Source: Ustilago trichophora (lineage: Eukaryota; Basidiomycota; Ustilaginomycetes; Ustilaginales; Ustilaginaceae). Taken from it: a stretch of 64,000 nucleotides of DNA. Of the stretch, positions 3,001-10,696 are shown piece after piece (positions within the stretch are counted from its first letter, which is position 1; every line of letters begins with the position of its first letter). Below the pieces are notes generated by a model. It was given only the letters and a program-made list of their open reading frames with translations, was not told the DNA's origin and did no database searches. The translations under genes were made by a program, and so were the position numbers. The DNA lies in assembly GCA_900323505.1 (NCBI GenBank), contig OOIN01000018.1, forward strand, positions 434,001 to 498,000, written 5' to 3'.

Positions 3001-3951
3001 TCTGTTTTGCGGTGATCTCCCGTCGGGCTGGTTGAGTGGTAGCGAGTGACAGGATATCACTGTCATTTTGGTCAAATTGGGTTGACAGCCGAGTTGGCAT
3101 TGTCGTCGCGAGTGGTCATCTAACAACATCATTGTTATTGCAATGGTACCGTTCATTCGGGGTTCTCACGTCAACCACCCAGCAAGACAAGACAAACATG
3201 CCCTGTTCGGCAAAGCTGGCAGCACTGCCCACATCGTGGCTCTCTGGAGCGATTCGCATGGACCACGCAACCCTAGAGATTCTCTTGAGGCCGTGCACTG
3301 CTGCACATCGAAGTTGGACAAAGTGCCAAACGAGAGACAGAGGCAGGCACCGCAATTGGTCTCGTACTCTGTTCCATTGTTGTTGTCAGTATTTGCTCAT
3401 GGCAAGGGTTGGCATGACGAGTGCCATTCAGTTCCTCGCATGGCCATTGGAGCAGTCTTTGAAATCGAGGGTGCTAATTGAACAGTGCAGTTTGGCTGGT
3501 ACAGTACAGAAAATTCGGCGAAATCCTCCGTTCTGCGTCGCCAAAGTTTCCTAAAAACTAGCACTCAGCTCAGGGGAACAGAGAGAGACAGAGACAGAGT
3601 CTCTCCTCTTTGGTGTTCAAAACCCTGCATCTCACGCCGCGGCAGCATTTCGGAGTTCCAATGCACAAGCGAGAGAAAAACTGCGCATCAAACCAGCCTT
3701 GGACAAAGAGGGGAACAATGAGCAACTCATACAGCACTCTCTGACCGCCTGCCTGGCTCATTGTGGGTGATTCGGGAATGTGCTCCACTGTTTTTCGCCC
3801 TCCTCTCTATTGTCTTTGTAGAGATCGCATGATTGTTCGGTTCAACATATTGGTCAACTTGTGGATAACGGTGATGGGGGTGAAGCGCGGTCCTCTCCTC
3901 CCTCGATGCCATCCGAGTGCCTTGTTACTTGACGTGAGACGGAAGGAGCAA
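1..3951. other. Gene-poor region, left flank of the transposon
   Basis: About 4 kb in which I recognise no coding region. The open frames are short, lie on both strands and show no family motif or consistent codon bias. The stretch holds a CT dinucleotide tract (913-937) and several TACAGTA/TACTGTA heptamers (775-781, 1867-1878, 3500-3506). It could be intergenic DNA, decayed coding sequence or a non-coding transcript locus; nothing here decides between these. Confidence 0.5.
913..937. repeat. CT dinucleotide microsatellite
   Basis: An uninterrupted TC/CT run of about 25 nt in non-coding sequence. Confidence 0.9.
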
Positions 3952-3953
3952 TA

Positions 3954-3990
3954 GGGGGTTTCAAATTTTTCGAGTTTTTGAAAACTCGAG
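3954..3990 (+). repeat. Left terminal inverted repeat
   Basis: Begins GGGGGTTTCAAATTTTT and runs into CGAGTTTTTGAAAACTCGAG. It is the reverse complement of 9631-9668 except for one extra T in the right copy. Just inside it, 3971-3988 and 3998-4015 form an 18-bp inverted repeat around a 9-bp T-rich spacer, a probable hairpin or transposase-binding array. Confidence 0.93.
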
Positions 3991-4254
3991 TTTTTTTCGA
4001 GTTTTCAAAAACTCGAGTCTGCAATTGCTTATGTAAGCTCAGCCAAACTCAAAAAAAATCGGGTTTTCAAACATTCGCCTATTTCGAGTGTGGTGCGACC
4101 ATCGAGTCTGGGTCTGGGTCGGGTCTACAAAGCCACGTGACGTATCCCGACTTCCGCGCCTTCTAACTGCGCACTCCGCAAAGACCTGCTCAACTTGTAC
4201 CTTTTCGCTCTCTTCTGTCAACCATCGTCTCCAACATTTCCGTGCCTTGTCGGA

Positions 4255-5925
4255 ATGGAGAACTATCTTCATTCCCACGATGGCGAGAGCCAGAGCTTAT
4301 CTCTTGGCTGCGAAAACACTTCTTTGACAACAATCTCTGCCAGCAAAAACATGGACAATTCAGCGCTTCCTGCGCTCAGGCTTCCTCTGCCCAGCGCGGG
4401 AGGCGAGTCCACAGGCTCCTCATCCGATGTTTCTCGCCAGCCATCATCTTCTCATCCTACAACCGCCGCTTCCAATTCTCGCACGCAGCAACAAGCATCT
4501 TCGTATCGCCGTACACTTCCTGCCCGCGCTACTCGCTCAGTCTCATCGGTCCCAAGCGCCTCATCGTCCCGGTTTACCAGAGGTGGAACGTACTTCAACT
4601 GGACGGACGAGGAAACCGAGCGTCTCGTGGACGTTATATACAACTCACCAAGATTCCAGATCGCTTTACTACGAGGTCGAGTCAGCAACGCCCAAGAAAA
4701 GGGACATAAAACGAACAAAGTCGTCACTTGTCGAGAAGTATTCAAGCTGGTGTTCCCCAACGAAGACGTCGCAAACTGTGGCAATCGTATTAAAGCCAAG
4801 CTTCGCGGGTTAGAAGAAAAGTACAAGAAGATCAGAGCTTTGTTGTCGCAAACAGGATCTGGTCTTCTTTTTCGCAACATGCAATCCAACCACTCGGTGA
4901 GTACGCCGACACTTTGTCTTGGTATGGTATGATTACATTGGGTTACATGGAACTGACGGACTACCTTTCCTTCCTTGACCTCTCTGCTTTAGGACTTTAC
5001 CAACCGTGCCGCAATCACTAAGACCTACCCTTGGTTTGAGCGGTGGCACGAGATGGCAATCAATCGCCCCGAGACCGGTCCTGTGGTCTTGCTCACCAGC
5101 ACGCCTTACGACTCTACGCCTGCCCCCGCCACTACGCCTGCCCCCGCCACTACGCCTGCCCCCGCCACTACGCCTGCCCCCGCCACTACGCCTGCCCCCA
5201 GCACTTCTGAATCCAATGTACATGACATGGACGAGGACGATGACGACATCTTTCCTGGAGACCGTCGCATTCCTTCATTGGATGCAATTGCCGAATCTTC
5301 TTCCGAGGACCCATTCTCAGGTCGGGTCCTTGCTTCCTCTTTGTCGCACCCGAACACGCATGCATCCCCTCTTCGCAACAATGCCTTGTCCAGCCACGCT
5401 TCTACCACCTCCATCAGCACCCCTTTACCCGTCAACGACACCGTCCGCCGTAATGCCAGCTCTGCATTTGGTGCTGACGGTGAAGAAGATCTCAACAACA
5501 GATCAGCTCGTGACTCGGTAACCTCGGATGCGATTCCCAGGTTTCGATCGACTTCTCAAGCAAGGGGGGGGAAGCGCGACGATATCTCTGACCTCATGCG
5601 CATCTTCATCGAAGGCCAATCAGAGACACGAGTCAAGGTGGAGGAAGAGCGCACAAAGCGCGAGGAAGAGCTCACAAAGCGAGAGGAACAGCTCACAAAG
5701 CGAGAGGAAATGCGACTCAAGTACCAGGAAAAGGAGCATGAAAGGATGGAGCGGATGAGAGTTAGGGATCATCACTTCATGCTCAGTGTCCTTGGATACG
5801 CTCGTCCTTCTGCAGCCACCGATCACAACAACATGAACAACATGAGCCTCAACAGCATGATTGGTGGCTTGGATGAATCACTCCATGAACAGGGCGCCGA
5901 GACCTTCAACGAGCGCGTTCCTTAG
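4255..5925 (+). CDS. Transposon Myb/SANT-like DNA-binding protein with coiled coil
   Basis: Two exons, 4255-4896 and 4993-5925 (GTGAGT donor, TTTAG acceptor), give 524 aa. Residues about 115-240 form a Myb/SANT-like trihelix: YFNWTDEETERLVDVIYN opens the domain, LRGLEEKYKKIRA follows, and after the intron TYPWFERWHEM supplies the last conserved aromatic helix. Such proteins are encoded beside the transposase in PIF/Harbinger elements, bind the element ends and help bring the transposase to the nucleus. A Pro/Thr repeat (five TPAPAT units, 5116-5205) and an acidic Ser-rich linker follow. Near the C terminus a heptad-like repeat of LTKREE units (about 5640-5712) predicts a coiled coil for oligomerisation. 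The start is the first ATG that keeps a plausible N terminus; ATG at 4195 or 4351 is possible. Confidence 0.82.
5116..5205 (+). repeat. 18-bp tandem repeat, five units
   Basis: Unit ACGCCTGCCCCCGCCACT occurs four times exactly, with a fifth variant copy. It encodes TPAPAT repeats in the linker of the Myb/SANT-like protein. Being in frame (18 bp), copy-number change would not disrupt the reading frame. Confidence 0.93.
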
Positions 5926-6268
5926 TCTTGTGGCTTGGCCCAGCCACTCACAAACGAGCGACGTCTCTTCAATCGGTGTGGCTCGGTACTTCCTTCCTCG
6001 CTCTCCTGTACCATTGTAACTTGTAGTGATTGTCGCATCATCATTCAATTCAACCGTCTGTCATCGTCTGTACATGATTGCGATCAACCTTGTCTCCAAA
6101 TGGTTGGGTGTGTGCGCATATCCGAATTCCGAGAACGCGTGAGCTGCGCACTTTTGGTCTTTACTGCGCAGTTTTTGACTTGCTTTCTCACAACTCTTTC
6201 CTCCTTCCTTCCGTCAAACACCAACACCAACACCAACACCACCACCTTCGACGACATCACATACAGCC
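5926..6268. other. Intergenic spacer between transposon genes
   Basis: About 340 bp between the Myb-like gene stop and the transposase ATG. It must hold the 3' end of one transcript and the transposase promoter. A CAACAC-type tandem (about 6221-6243) lies just before the ATG. No other feature is seen. Confidence 0.5.
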
Positions 6269-7816
6269 ATGGTTCGGGTCTCCTCCAAGCAGGAACTCCT
6301 CAATCAACTACAAACAGCGATTCAGCATTCGATCCTTTTCGAAACCTTGTTGAATTCAGAATTGGCTATAGACAACAACTGCAGTGACAGCTACGACGAC
6401 GACTACGAGTATGCTTTCGCACGTGCACTTGCCGTTATGTACTTAGCTGTCTTAAGCGACCGATACTCTGTGGAACGTCACCTCTTGTCTCGCCGCAAGG
6501 ACACTATTCTGGATCGACTTGACCACTACTCCGAATACAACCATAAGCTCTACCGCGGCCTAGTTCGCATGACACCGCAGGCATTCGAGGACCTCACACT
6601 ACGACTCAGCTCAACGGATGTCTTCAAGAACACCAGGAATTACAGGAGGGTTCAAATGCAGATTGCGGTCGGGTTGTACTGCCTAGGTCGATCGGGAAAT
6701 GGCGGAGGCGTTCGTGATGCTGCCTTTGCTTGCGGGTGCTCATGGGGTTCCGTCCATCTTTGGACTGAGAAGACAATCAAGGCACTTTACGAGATCAACA
6801 CCGAGGTAGTCACCTTTGCTACCAAAGATGAACGCGCCAAGGCCTCCGCCTGGGTTAAGGAAAAATCTGGCGTGGAAGAATGGGGTCGCGGATGGCTTGT
6901 TGCAGACGGCACACACATCAACCTCGCGTGGAAACCTGCAATGAATGCTCGAGAGCACTACTCGTACAAAGGTGACTACACTTTCAACGTCGCTCTTGTC
7001 TTTCTTCCTCATTCTCTTCGCATTGTGGAGTCAGTCGTTGGCCATCCTGGTTCTTCTCATGACTCGCGTGTCTGGGCGTCTGGCCAGGGCATCGTAGCCA
7101 AACCTCGTCTGCATCTGGACGAAGGCGAGTTTGTCTGGGTGGATTCCGGATTCGGGTACTCAAGCTATTCTGTCAGTCCATATGGAAATACTTTCGCTAA
7201 CCAGAGCCGCGACATCAGGTTCTTCAACTTCAGCATGTCTCGCATCCGCGTTCGAGCAGAGCATGGAATCGCCTACCTCAAGAATCGCTTTCAGTGCCTA
7301 ATGGGTTATCGAGGAAACCTATATCGAGAGGAGGACCACCAAAAGGCGGCGTACGCCATTCAAGCATGCATCATTGCCCACACATTTGCCAGCCGTTACG
7401 ACAGACCCGACGATGTAGCCGAATATCTGTTGGAAACGTATTCCCCTGAAGTTGTCCAAGATGTCACAGCCGAACTCAGCTCTTACCAGCAAGCTACGGA
7501 AGGTGCAAGGGTACACCGTCGAGAGAACCAAGTTCGTTATGAACAGGAACTGGCACGTGCGACGGAAGGCATGTCTCAACGGCAGCTTGCCACCTTTAGG
7601 GCTGATGCCGCTCACGCTCTTCGAGAGGAAATGGTTACCGCTTTGTTCACATCTTATTCTCGCCGATTCGAAGATACAACCGCGGCCTCTAGGCGAAGAG
7701 GCAGGACAGAGGCTGGACTTGAATCGGAACAGGGACGTGTCGCTCGACGCAACGAGGCACGAAGAGCTCAAAGGTCACAGCAGGCTCAACAGTCACAGTC
7801 TCAGGACGCGCAATAG
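6269..7816 (+). CDS. PIF/Harbinger-type DDE transposase (DDE_Tnp_4 superfamily)
   Basis: Single exon, 515 aa. The protein has the HARBI1-like layout: an N-terminal helical domain (LVRMTPQAFEDLTLRL, like the YRMSxxxF region of the family), a helix-turn-helix-like segment (DAAFACGCSWGSVHLW, about residues 150-166) and the DDE catalytic core. The catalytic triad is visible as D213 (VADGTH), D292 (WVDSGFGY) and E331 (VRAEHGIAYLKNRF). The core is followed by a Gln/Arg-rich basic tail (residues about 440-515). The enzyme should cut at the terminal repeats and reinsert the element. It lies 343 bp downstream of its Myb-like partner on the same strand. The open frame and intact triad suggest recent activity. 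Confidence 0.92.
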   Translation: MVRVSSKQELLNQLQTAIQHSILFETLLNSELAIDNNCSDSYDDDYEYAFARALAVMYLAVLSDRYSVERHLLSRRKDTILDRLDHYSEYNHKLYRGLVRMTPQAFEDLTLRLSSTDVFKNTRNYRRVQMQIAVGLYCLGRSGNGGGVRDAAFACGCSWGSVHLWTEKTIKALYEINTEVVTFATKDERAKASAWVKEKSGVEEWGRGWLVADGTHINLAWKPAMNAREHYSYKGDYTFNVALVFLPHSLRIVESVVGHPGSSHDSRVWASGQGIVAKPRLHLDEGEFVWVDSGFGYSSYSVSPYGNTFANQSRDIRFFNFSMSRIRVRAEHGIAYLKNRFQCLMGYRGNLYREEDHQKAAYAIQACIIAHTFASRYDRPDDVAEYLLETYSPEVVQDVTAELSSYQQATEGARVHRRENQVRYEQELARATEGMSQRQLATFRADAAHALREEMVTALFTSYSRRFEDTTAASRRRGRTEAGLESEQGRVARRNEARRAQRSQQAQQSQSQDAQ

Positions 7817-8149
7817 GATGCAGTGGCGACGAGAAGCGCCTTGCCCAACAGCGCACTCCTCTCGCCCCAGCATCCCTTTCGAATCGAAACGCAGCAGGAG
7901 CCTCGTCGCCACTCGCCTAACCCTCAAGCAGTCCCCTCAAGAGCCAGGCCTCTAGCTCGAGGGAACCACACAGTTCACTTAAAGGTAAGTTTTATTCCGG
8001 CTCAAGAATGTTTTGCTACCTTCGAAGTTTCTGACAATTTCTATCTTTCATCCATCTCGCAGCTTCATCACCACTTCACTTTCCTACATCGTCACCGTCG
8101 GCACTCCTCGGTTGCCCTCTCCTCGCCATCATTGCTGAGGAGGACTCCC
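7817..8149 (+). pseudogene. Probable N-terminal MCM4-derived segment, broken
   Basis: Starting just after the transposase stop, one frame reads Ser/Pro-rich sequence such as QRTPLAPASLSNRNAAGASS and SSPLHFPTSSPSALLG. This resembles the low-complexity phospho-tail at the N terminus of fungal MCM4. The frame is interrupted by TAA at about 7918. It crosses a canonical intron (GTAAGT at 7985, CGCAG at about 8061) in phase, then runs out of frame before the next MCM4 block at 8150. The assignment to MCM4 is inference from composition and from the position next to the unmistakable MCM4 blocks. Confidence 0.4.
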
Positions 8150-9361
8150 ATGTCGCTCATCCACAACCGATGCGAGTTCTCGGATCGCCAGGTCGTTTGC
8201 ATTCAGGAGACTCCCGACGTCGTTCCTGATGGTCAGACCCCTCACACCGTAAGCATGTGCGCCTACGACGAATTGGTCGACGTCAGCAAGCCTGGTGACC
8301 GCGTCGAGATCACCGGTATCTTCCGAAGCACACCTGTCCGCGTCAACCCTCGACAGCGTAGTCTCAAGAGTCTCTACAAGACATTCGTTGACATCCTTCA
8401 CATCAAGCGCACCAACGCCAAGAGGCTCGGCGTTGATCTCTCTACTCGAGACGCTTCCGAGCAAGCTGCCGGCCCTGGCGCGCAAGCTGTCGGTGTCGGC
8501 GGTGAGGAGGACGACGAGGATGTCGATGTGCAGAGCGGCTTTGGTGGAGATGCAACTCACAGTGTCTTGCACGAAGTGAAGGAGCAGCAGACGCTCAGCA
8601 TCGCCAAGGCCGGTATCATTACCACCCTCAATGCACGTGCCTCGATCCTCACGGCTGCCAACCCAACAGGCTCGCGCTACAACGTCAACCTGCCCATCAC
8701 CAAGAACATCGATCTTCCTCCTACCCTCATCAGTCGATTCGATCTGGTCTACCTGGTGCTCGACAAGATTGACGAGGCCAACGATCGCCGTCTGGCTTGC
8801 CACCTGGTCAGCCTCTACTTGGAAGACAAGCCCAACACTAGTGGCAAAGACATTCTGCCCATCGAGACACTCACCGCCTATATCTCTTACGCACGCAACC
8901 GCATCTCGCCGGTCCTCACCAAGGAAGCCGGTGACGCTCTCGCTGCTCGCTACATCGAGCTGCGTAAAGTCGGTGAGGACCCACGCAGCGCCGAGGGCCG
9001 AATCACTGCTACGACAAGACAGCTCGAATCGATGATCCGTCTGTCCAAGGCACACGCTCGCATGCGTTTCGCCGACGAGGTTGTAGTGGACGATGTTGAG
9101 GAGGCAGCCCGTCTGATCCGCAAAGCAGCCAAGTCTTCAGCTACCGACCCGCGCACTGGCCTTGTTGACCTGGACCTCATCAACACAGGCCAATTGTACC
9201 ACCAGCGCAAACTTGCTGGCGATCTGCGACGCGAGCTCCTCCAACTGCTCGACGAGATGGGCAGCGGCTTTGGCAGGGCTACCTCTCCTTCGGGCCCTTC
9301 GTCGACTGCCCCGACCAAAGCTGTTCGATACGTCGATTTCGCCAAAACGCTCAATGACTAG
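8150..9361 (+). CDS. Internally deleted MCM4-like ORF carried by the transposon
   Basis: An open 403-aa frame made of two MCM4 blocks. Residues 1 to about 135 match the N-terminal OB-fold region (MSLIHNRCEFSDRQVV, DGQTPHTVSMCAYDELVD, EITGIFRSTPVRVNPRQR). Residues about 143-403 match the end of the AAA+ domain and the C terminus (SVLHEVKEQQTLSIAKAG, LPPTLISRFDLVYLVLD with the arginine-finger SRF, TATTRQLESMIRLSKAHARM). About 250 residues that normally lie between, including Walker A, sensor/hairpin elements and Walker B, are missing, and the junction keeps the frame. It cannot hydrolyse ATP on its own. It sits inside the terminal repeats, so it is captured host sequence and not the resident helicase gene. 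Whether it is translated from the ATG at 8150 is unknown. It may be a decaying capture or a product able to join MCM complexes. Confidence 0.8.
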   Translation: MSLIHNRCEFSDRQVVCIQETPDVVPDGQTPHTVSMCAYDELVDVSKPGDRVEITGIFRSTPVRVNPRQRSLKSLYKTFVDILHIKRTNAKRLGVDLSTRDASEQAAGPGAQAVGVGGEEDDEDVDVQSGFGGDATHSVLHEVKEQQTLSIAKAGIITTLNARASILTAANPTGSRYNVNLPITKNIDLPPTLISRFDLVYLVLDKIDEANDRRLACHLVSLYLEDKPNTSGKDILPIETLTAYISYARNRISPVLTKEAGDALAARYIELRKVGEDPRSAEGRITATTRQLESMIRLSKAHARMRFADEVVVDDVEEAARLIRKAAKSSATDPRTGLVDLDLINTGQLYHQRKLAGDLRRELLQLLDEMGSGFGRATSPSGPSSTAPTKAVRYVDFAKTLND

Positions 9362-9616
9362 TCGACGGTGACGGTTTCTGTGTCATTGTTCCTGATAACT
9401 CAAGCTACCTCAGCGTTGCCATCTTTGTATATACAGATGTTTGTGTTGTGGCCACCACCGTCTTCAATTGAGTCTTTGTGACATGCTTTCACGTCTGATA
9501 TGTGCGGGATTTCGGAATTCGGATCACGACTAGTCGGCCGTGTGAAGCCCAGACTCGAGTCTCCTAGACCCAAACTTGTTGCACAAAAATGGGGGCGTCA
9601 AAAGTTGAGTAAACGC

Positions 9617-9668
9617 GAGTTTTTGAAAACTCGAGTTTTCAAAAACTCGAAAAAATTTGAAACCCCCT
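9617..9668 (-). repeat. Right terminal inverted repeat with 34-bp palindrome
   Basis: The terminal repeat is 9631-9668. Positions 9617-9650 are a perfect 34-bp palindrome made of the unit CGAGTTTTTGAAAACTCG and its complement. The left end has the same two units separated by a 9-bp spacer, so both ends carry the same subterminal sites in the same order. Confidence 0.93.
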
Positions 9669-9670
9669 AA

Positions 9671-10696
9671 TGTTGACAAAGGCTTGTTGATAGACCGAGG
9701 GAAAAAAGCACACGGACGGCATATGAAACGCAAAGCGTTGAACCCTGCCTTTTTGAACGCCATGCTGAGCCAATTGCTTCATCTGGTTTTGTCGCACAGT
9801 ATGTACAGCATGGCGCAGACTAGACTACTGTGGGTTGGAATCTGGTTCGGCGACCCCACCAGCAACGGGCGCATACTGGATCTTGGCCAACGCTTTTTTT
9901 CAAGCGACCCTGCCTTGAATTCCGAGCTTGGCATGCATCTTCATATCCTCACCAAGTCAGAGTATCGTCGACGCTTGACCTTGGTAACTTCTCGATCCAT
10001 AGTTCAGCCGTGGCCGGAACCGACGGGATGGCTCGTTTCCACACACACATACGATATCTCGTTTACCGAAAACAGACGGTGCACGAGGCGCAACGCTCCC
10101 GGTCTTTGCGCCGATTGCAAAGCGCCAGAGCATGATTGACTGGGCGCCAGAGAAAAGGTGTCTGGTGAAAGAGAGAGCGAGGGAGAGAGAGAAGGCTGTG
10201 ATTGGTCCTGTTTGCATGCGCTCCAAAAAGAATGTGCAGAACCAGCAGCAGGTTGGATCCTCAGCCTCGTGTCGGCTTTGTTTAGAGTTTTCTGGTTCAA
10301 CAGGGCAGAGCAACCCTGCATCTGCCCTGCCGTTTTTATTTATTTTTTATTTGGTTCAATTTGGCCGCAGGTGCACACTCTTGTTACATTTCATAAGAGT
10401 TGAGCCGGTTTGCTTGTTCTTCCTGACAAGGGAAATATTTTGGCTGATTTTCTGCATGGCAAGTCTGAAACCGTGAAATTTCAGAATGTGAGCACTTTGG
10501 CACAGAGCGAAGATTGGACCCCTTTCCCATCTATCTGCCACGCTTGAATTTGGCGCGACCAGTCCACAGCGTCAGAGCAGTGTCGTACAGCTCAGACGCG
10601 TATGAGTGAGAGTACTTGTCAGCCAGGATTTGGCATTTTTCGGTCCTCAATTTCCCGAAACCTGATTTCGCTCGACTCTCTCTCCATTTTGGCAAC

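Follow-up and report, generated by a model that had tools for sequence, protein, structure and literature searches.

Gene capture by a transposon is usually seen as a rare accident, after which the captured sequence stays frozen. Among fungal DNA transposons, elements with a TET/JBP gene have been reported, including the Harbinger lineage PHISTA, as have HarbingerS elements with a SET gene (PMC12730594). Plant Pack-TYPE elements hold host gene fragments between terminal inverted repeats (TIRs) and duplicate them through transposition (PMC8903248), and animal Pack-TIRs are described as gaining internal filler DNA by template switching in repair, under a gap-filling model (PMC8277862). Here, we describe a DNA transposon of Ustilago trichophora that carries DNA of the replication gene MCM4. 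We analyzed a 64,000-nucleotide stretch, hereafter called the window, of contig OOIN01000018.1 (assembly GCA_900323505.1, positions 434,001 to 498,000 of the forward strand), in which the element occupies positions 3953-9668 (5716 bp) and comprises both of its own genes plus an MCM4 block. Contrary to the picture of a frozen accident, the same essential host gene was copied at least three times into related elements, and one tract of the cargo appears to have been overwritten shortly before the element spread. It is this recurrence, with one essential gene copied several times, that makes the locus interesting.

The element resembles PHISTA and HarbingerS in being a DNA transposon with an extra gene from elsewhere. 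As the source portrays those systems, however, their extra gene codes for an enzyme of methylation marks (PMC12730594), whereas the present one is a broken replication gene taken repeatedly from the host copy. With Pack-TYPE elements it shares a captured host gene fragment between TIRs; those are described as non-autonomous (PMC8903248), whereas this element retains both of its own genes. Repeated copying of one gene into one element line is not described in the available part of the Pack-TIR report (PMC8277862). A literature search, which missed most papers in subscription journals, yielded no precedent: an MCM4-bearing transposon was named in none of the titles and abstract openings listed.

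We place the element, a cut-and-paste DNA transposon, in the PIF/Harbinger-like (PHIS) superfamily; judged by its ANT target site duplications (TSDs), it is probably of the Pangu type. An earlier interpretation of the window, made from the letters alone (the sequence-only reading), had called it Harbinger-like. This holds at the level of the superfamily, as the transposase is of the DDE_Tnp_4 family with the D, D and E residues, but not for PIF/Harbinger proper, whose TWA duplication was found in 0 of 14 elements. The 3-bp TSD pairs matched in all 14 (10 with MCM4 cargo and 4 relatives without) and were ANT in 11, the exceptions being TGT, ACA and TTT. ANT duplications are given as defining Pangu (PMC4482050), to which Harbinger2 of Repbase is said to correspond (PMC12730594). 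Pangu elements are reported, from three basidiomycetes among others, to have TIRs of 11-40 bp starting with AG or GG and two open reading frames (ORFs), the second without a known motif (PMC4482050). The element has two ORFs of its own, one of them with a Myb/SANT match below the Pfam cut-off (E 0.041), and TIRs that start with AG (AGGGGG); it differs from described Pangu elements by its captured MCM4 DNA and by TIR arms of 42 and 43 bp, slightly above that range. A TA or 1-bp TSD was dropped as a candidate, since the parse starting at AGGGGG gave matching triplets in 14 of 14 elements, including two copies that break the other parse.

Origins of the MCM4 tracts

The assembly comprises 38.8 Mb over 45 contigs (designated by C numbers hereafter); a genome of 20.7 Mb is reported for U. 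trichophora NBRC 100157 (PMC8951962). Host MCM4 is found once on C8 and once on C5, in regions that are 87% identical across 9.5 kb, and the two genes are separated by a synonymous divergence (dS) of 0.30 with a nonsynonymous-to-synonymous ratio (dN/dS) of 0.02. On this sequence comparison the assembly holds two diverged haplotypes; a hybrid, a diploid or a mixed culture would all fit.

The window-type element is present in seven near-full-length copies, including that of the window, which are 97-100% identical (99.3-99.6% pairwise over ungapped columns) and every one of them sits between matching 3-bp TSDs of its own. A 7367-bp long terminal repeat (LTR) element interrupts the MCM4 cargo of an eighth copy, on C37, and a ninth copy, on C17, ends at element base 2744, beside a telomere. 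A relic lies on C38, and both C44 and C16 contain a diverged sister element. The cargo region is reached by 11 of the resulting 12 copies or relics, all of which 11 contain MCM4 sequence; the cut C17 copy stops short of it. Two relatives (L017 and L019; 3931 bp including TIRs) show the layout without cargo. Several copies thus share the same MCM4 junctions between TIRs, in agreement with the proposal of the sequence-only reading that MCM4 DNA had been mobilized: the block recurs outside the window copy, and the TIRs do not come from different nested elements, as one and the same TIR pair, with matching TSDs, delimits every complete copy. These comparisons showed that the MCM4 block moves as part of the element.

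The block (approximately 7830-9376, same strand) begins about 13 bp past the transposase stop, and consists of three tracts, A, B and C (Table 1). Fixed changes private to the window-type element, scored with C5 as the outgroup, numbered 25/317 in tract A and 27/825 in tract C but 0/400 in tract B (8150-8549). The difference between B and C was significant (Fisher p 3e-5), as was that between B and a trimmed tract A (19/296; p 6e-8), from which the first 20 bp, of uncertain homology, and the junction base had been removed. Tract A was more changed than C (p 0.0014; trimmed, p 0.026). A change-free run of 405 bases occurred in 0 of 20,000 random placements, and its edges coincide with two cargo junctions, at 8148 and 8554. 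The CpG content of tract B is at the level of the host gene (10.75 per 100 bp), and departures of the present copies from their majority are denser in B than in C (57.5 vs 25.5 per kb), B being the highest of four stretches compared. The simplest reading of these patterns is that tract B is a patch from a C8-type MCM4, copied in shortly before the present copies spread.

Tract C points to an older event. The window-type element and the C38 relic have the same 3′ MCM4/element junction, and over 1170 sites this pair shares 10 changes, with 1 and 3 for the alternative pairings. Derived changes shared with C38 were found at 10 of 770 sites in tract C and at 0 of 400 in tract B, where C38 itself is changed at 34 of 400 sites. 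The relic retains a long MCM4 stretch that includes the Walker region, with stop codons.

The sister element on C44 and C16 carries MCM4 directly behind the transposase stop, on the same strand as in the window-type element, and on the element side its slot coincides with that of the window-type cargo within about 20 bp of that stop. The parts retained differ: the window-type element has mostly the C-terminal half, the sister element an N-terminal part, from approximately 160 bp upstream of the exon-1 ATG to near codon 348. The donors also differ. Identity of the C44 piece is 96.7% with the C5 gene and 85.1% with that of C8, whereas the window-type cargo matches C8 at 95.5-99.3% in its exon 2 blocks (86.6% over exon 1, the intron and the start of exon 2). 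Among 373 aligned sites in homologous blocks, 43 supported the grouping of the window-type cargo with C8 and of C44 with C5, with 1 and 0 for the alternatives (41, 3 and 0 when C16 was used), and a tree with the window-type, C44 and C16 cargoes in one clade was rejected (approximately unbiased test, p-AU 0.00017). A looser alignment of 278 sites gave the same result (20, 1 and 0; p-AU 0.00075). Both cargoes seem to postdate the divergence of the two element lineages, because dS is 0.50 between the window-type and C44 transposases, compared with 0.30 between the host MCM4 genes and 0.05 between the window-type cargo and C8, and because the C44 piece is so close to C5.

Taken together, the sequences showed at least three MCM4 acquisitions: tract C, shared with C38 and of C8 type; tract B, later and also of C8 type; and the C44/C16 piece, of C5 type. 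Tract A, of C8 type, could date from the first event or from before it.

Content and decay of the cargo

The sequence-only reading had placed a third, host-derived gene at 8150-9361. That stretch is indeed derived from MCM4, but the block starts farther upstream, just behind the transposase, and it is a rearranged fragment rather than an intact gene. Relative to host MCM4, the cargo extends from inside exon 1 to near codon 880 of the 920-amino-acid (aa) ORF, and host stretches of 167, 831 and 453 bp are absent at its internal junctions, the last two in frame. The 453-bp gap lies between tracts B and C, whose junction falls between 8551 and 8553, and removes Walker A and Walker B, both of which are present in the host ORF. 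Also missing are half of the OB domain and what we take to be the zinc cysteines and most of the winged-helix end of MCM4. Pfam matches were confined to positions 136-224 of 224 in the model of the MCM P-loop domain and to 66-125 of 126 in that of the OB domain. These losses exclude intact MCM4 as the cargo. Retrocopying is likewise excluded, since tract A keeps intron 1 (7985-8062) with its GT..AG splice sites; because the intron is retained, the cargo was copied as DNA. The 403-aa cargo frame is shifted in the C37 copy that the LTR element splits. The same frame reaches back, free of stops, to just past the transposase TAG in 6 of 8 copies, and a transposase-MCM4 protein made by read-through of this single TAG was considered; the case is weak, as one of the three frames of tract A is open anyway. 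A protein search with the cargo gave a best identity of 72% and no near-identical protein among the matches listed (the best 120 of 1595).

On the element branch, the cargo of the window copy has accumulated 19 missense and 9 synonymous changes, at 906 and 303 sites, respectively. Fixed changes in tract C, taken from the majority of eight copies, comprise 16 missense, 8 synonymous and 1 nonsense that ends the frame, plus 2 beyond the stop; the missense share does not depart from neutrality (binomial p 0.68). Departures from the majority, counted per copy in the eight copies, were 26 missense, 17 synonymous and 0 nonsense, where neutral shares of 0.60, 0.37 and 0.03 are expected. The transposase of the same copies, with 20 missense, 11 synonymous and 0 nonsense, is similar to the cargo at this depth; over the longer comparison with C44, its dN/dS is 0.15. 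The cargo changes look neutral, without constraint at the protein level. Any protein product of the cargo is likely to be a passenger, because the ATPase motifs are absent and there is no sign of selection. The suggestion of the sequence-only reading that the element may interfere with, or time itself to, replication licensing is accordingly unsupported by a cargo that has lost Walker A, Walker B and the zinc cysteines and whose codons appear free to change.

Over the whole element, 127 of 144 departures were C>T or G>A, and 123 of those 127 were at CpG, from which we infer that the copies are methylated at CpG. Piwi-domain (Argonaute) genes are found on C24 and C19.

Explanations for the recurrence of MCM4

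We consider it likely that the MCM4 sequence is a passenger of a Pangu-type element and has been rewritten repeatedly with host MCM4 as the source, template switching being the probable route. Breaks within the element would be repaired with a template switch to host MCM4, each acquisition leaving one patch, much as the gap-filling model proposes for animal Pack-TIRs (PMC8277862). Homology between an MCM4 piece already on board and the host gene would ease further copying, and the cargo would be rewritten many times over; gene, slot and strand would recur because the homology of the existing cargo favors re-copying. If repair-driven rewriting of this kind is general, transposon cargo genes can look young and dates of "recent capture" can mislead. 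With its two haplotypes and many near-identical copies, the system lends itself well to tests of how capture works.

Several observations weigh against this interpretation. Microhomology at the four junctions examined is slight (3, 0, 2 and 1 bp), and gap repair is itself an inferred step. Two lineages with the same gene, slot and orientation exceed blind chance, which leaves room for selection. Zero nonsense changes among the 43 cargo departures, where approximately 1.3 are expected, at most mildly favors constraint. As for tract B, the C8 gene has 2 private changes there and 3 in tract C; the donor was therefore not exactly the present C8 allele, and from the host side tract B is not shown to be younger.

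Alternatively, MCM4 may have been captured afresh in each lineage, with neither an ancestral capture nor homology-led rewriting, if the gene lies near a hot spot of insertion or breakage. This possibility, somewhat doubtful in our view, overlaps most of the explanation by repeated rewriting and differs only in how the two lineages reached the same gene. In its favor, the outer junctions on the MCM4 side differ between the window-type and C44/C16 cargoes; against it stand the shared slot on the element side, the common strand and tract B, which shows that existing MCM4 cargo does get rewritten.

The cargo might instead be kept because it is useful, either as a truncated MCM4 that disturbs licensing or as a shield, in that silencing of the cargo by small RNAs or methylation would strike an essential gene as well. 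MCM4 is present in every copy or relic that reaches the cargo region, the same gene was acquired separately, the lack of fixed changes in tract B suggests that the current copies spread soon after its acquisition, and three of the four junctions examined preserve the frame (gaps of 831, 453 and 765 bp, unlike that of 167 bp); silencing is also plausibly active, given the Piwi-domain genes and the C>T decay at CpG. Against this stand the unconstrained codons of the cargo, the different MCM4 parts retained by the window-type and C44/C16 elements, and the methylation-like decay that the copies suffer anyway, which would make for a poor shield. Utility of the cargo thus appears unlikely. A variant in which MCM4 is a selected trait, renewed from the host as it decays, with a benefit from shielding against silencing or from lowered MCM4 output and with the latest burst following the last renewal, seems to us quite unlikely as well.

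It is improbable that two element ends once moved together around a whole MCM4 gene, which deletions later shrank. The long MCM4 stretch with the Walker region in the C38 relic would suit such a composite move; none of the 14 TIR matches is on C8 or C5 (ends with more than 3 mismatches would escape), however, and the element's own 3′ end, approximately 290 bp, still lies behind the MCM4 block. Finally, purifying selection on its protein, rather than youth, is a most improbable reason for the unchanged tract B: this part of the OB domain is, we presume, well folded in intact MCM proteins, but tract B lacks fixed changes of any kind, synonymous ones included, the present copies depart more there than in C, and C38 has varied freely in it.

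Structure and copies of the element

The features of the element are listed in Table 1. The sequence-only reading had delimited it at 3952..9670; it is real and bounded, with a proper span of 3953-9668 and the AAT duplications lying outside. Its account of three frames on one strand between matched TIRs (SANT-like, DDE transposase and MCM4-derived) was borne out, and the catalytic residues that it had named in the transposase were confirmed.

Table 1. Features of the MCM4-bearing element, in window coordinates.
Feature	Position	Strand	Observation
Left TSD AAT	3950-3952	.	same 3-mer at both ends in 14/14 elements
Left TIR, 42 bp	3953-3994	+	42/43 aligned positions match right end, one gap
SANT-like gene, exon 1	4255-4896	+	GT-AG model, 524 aa; Myb_DNA-bind_4 E 0.041
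SANT-like gene, exon 2, with proline/alanine repeat	4993-5925	+	two-exon frame open in 6/8 copies
DDE transposase, 515 aa, D213/D292/E331	6269-7816	+	PF13359 (DDE_Tnp_4) E 7.5e-19
MCM4 tract A: exon 1 part, intron 1, two exon 2 pieces	7830-8147	+	
MCM4 tract B: OB domain, second half	8148-8551	+	
MCM4 tract C: sensor 1, arginine finger, AAA lid	8552-9376	+	
Cargo open frame, 403 aa	8150-9361	+	open in 7/8 copies spanning 8150-9361
Element's own 3′ non-coding end	9377-9668	+	same MCM4/element 3′ junction in C38 relic
Right TIR, 43 bp	9626-9668	-	
Right TSD AAT	9669-9671	.	

The TIR core (22 bases, ≤3 mismatches) has a single occurrence in the window and was found in 0 of 100 shuffles; because of this, and because six further sites in the genome hold the full 5.7 kb at 97-100% identity, the element is beyond chance. 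All 14 TIR-core matches at this threshold were known copies, and they yielded no further members or short non-autonomous copies (more diverged ends would escape). The sequence-only reading had also called for an empty site, which we looked for on the partner haplotype. Six of seven sites align there on both sides with at most approximately 500 bp between the flanks, so that no 5-6 kb element is present; the seventh (C16) aligns weakly. At base level, five sites were compared: a single TSD triplet stands at the C42 site, the window site agrees apart from one small difference, C1a and C1b can be read in more than one way, and C14 gave no clear result. The element is real, well bounded and mobile.

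The match of the SANT-like protein to Myb_DNA-bind_4 is weak, falling under the Pfam cut-off, and its frame is broken in C37a and C40. The proline/alanine-coding repeat of this gene (5113-5210) varies in length among copies, from -18 bp to +108 bp relative to the window copy. Of 9 aligned copies, 8 have an open transposase frame; the remaining one is truncated.

The LTR element that splits the C37 copy (L026, C37:400410-407776) has 255-bp LTRs that are 99.2% identical. Contig C17 starts (1-840, L016) with telomere repeat and subtelomere, followed by the cut element copy, an arrangement that suggests a subtelomeric rearrangement inside the element. In the sister element (L012, position 8452), the missing 765-bp MCM4 stretch is in frame, with GT at its start and AG at its end, as if an intron had been taken out, although intron 1 itself persists; the junction of the window-type element resumes within approximately 4 bp of that place, directly before the same ATG. 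The sister element on C44 (L012, 6840-7787) and the MCM4-free relative L018 have in common an insertion of approximately 946 bp that is 98% identical.

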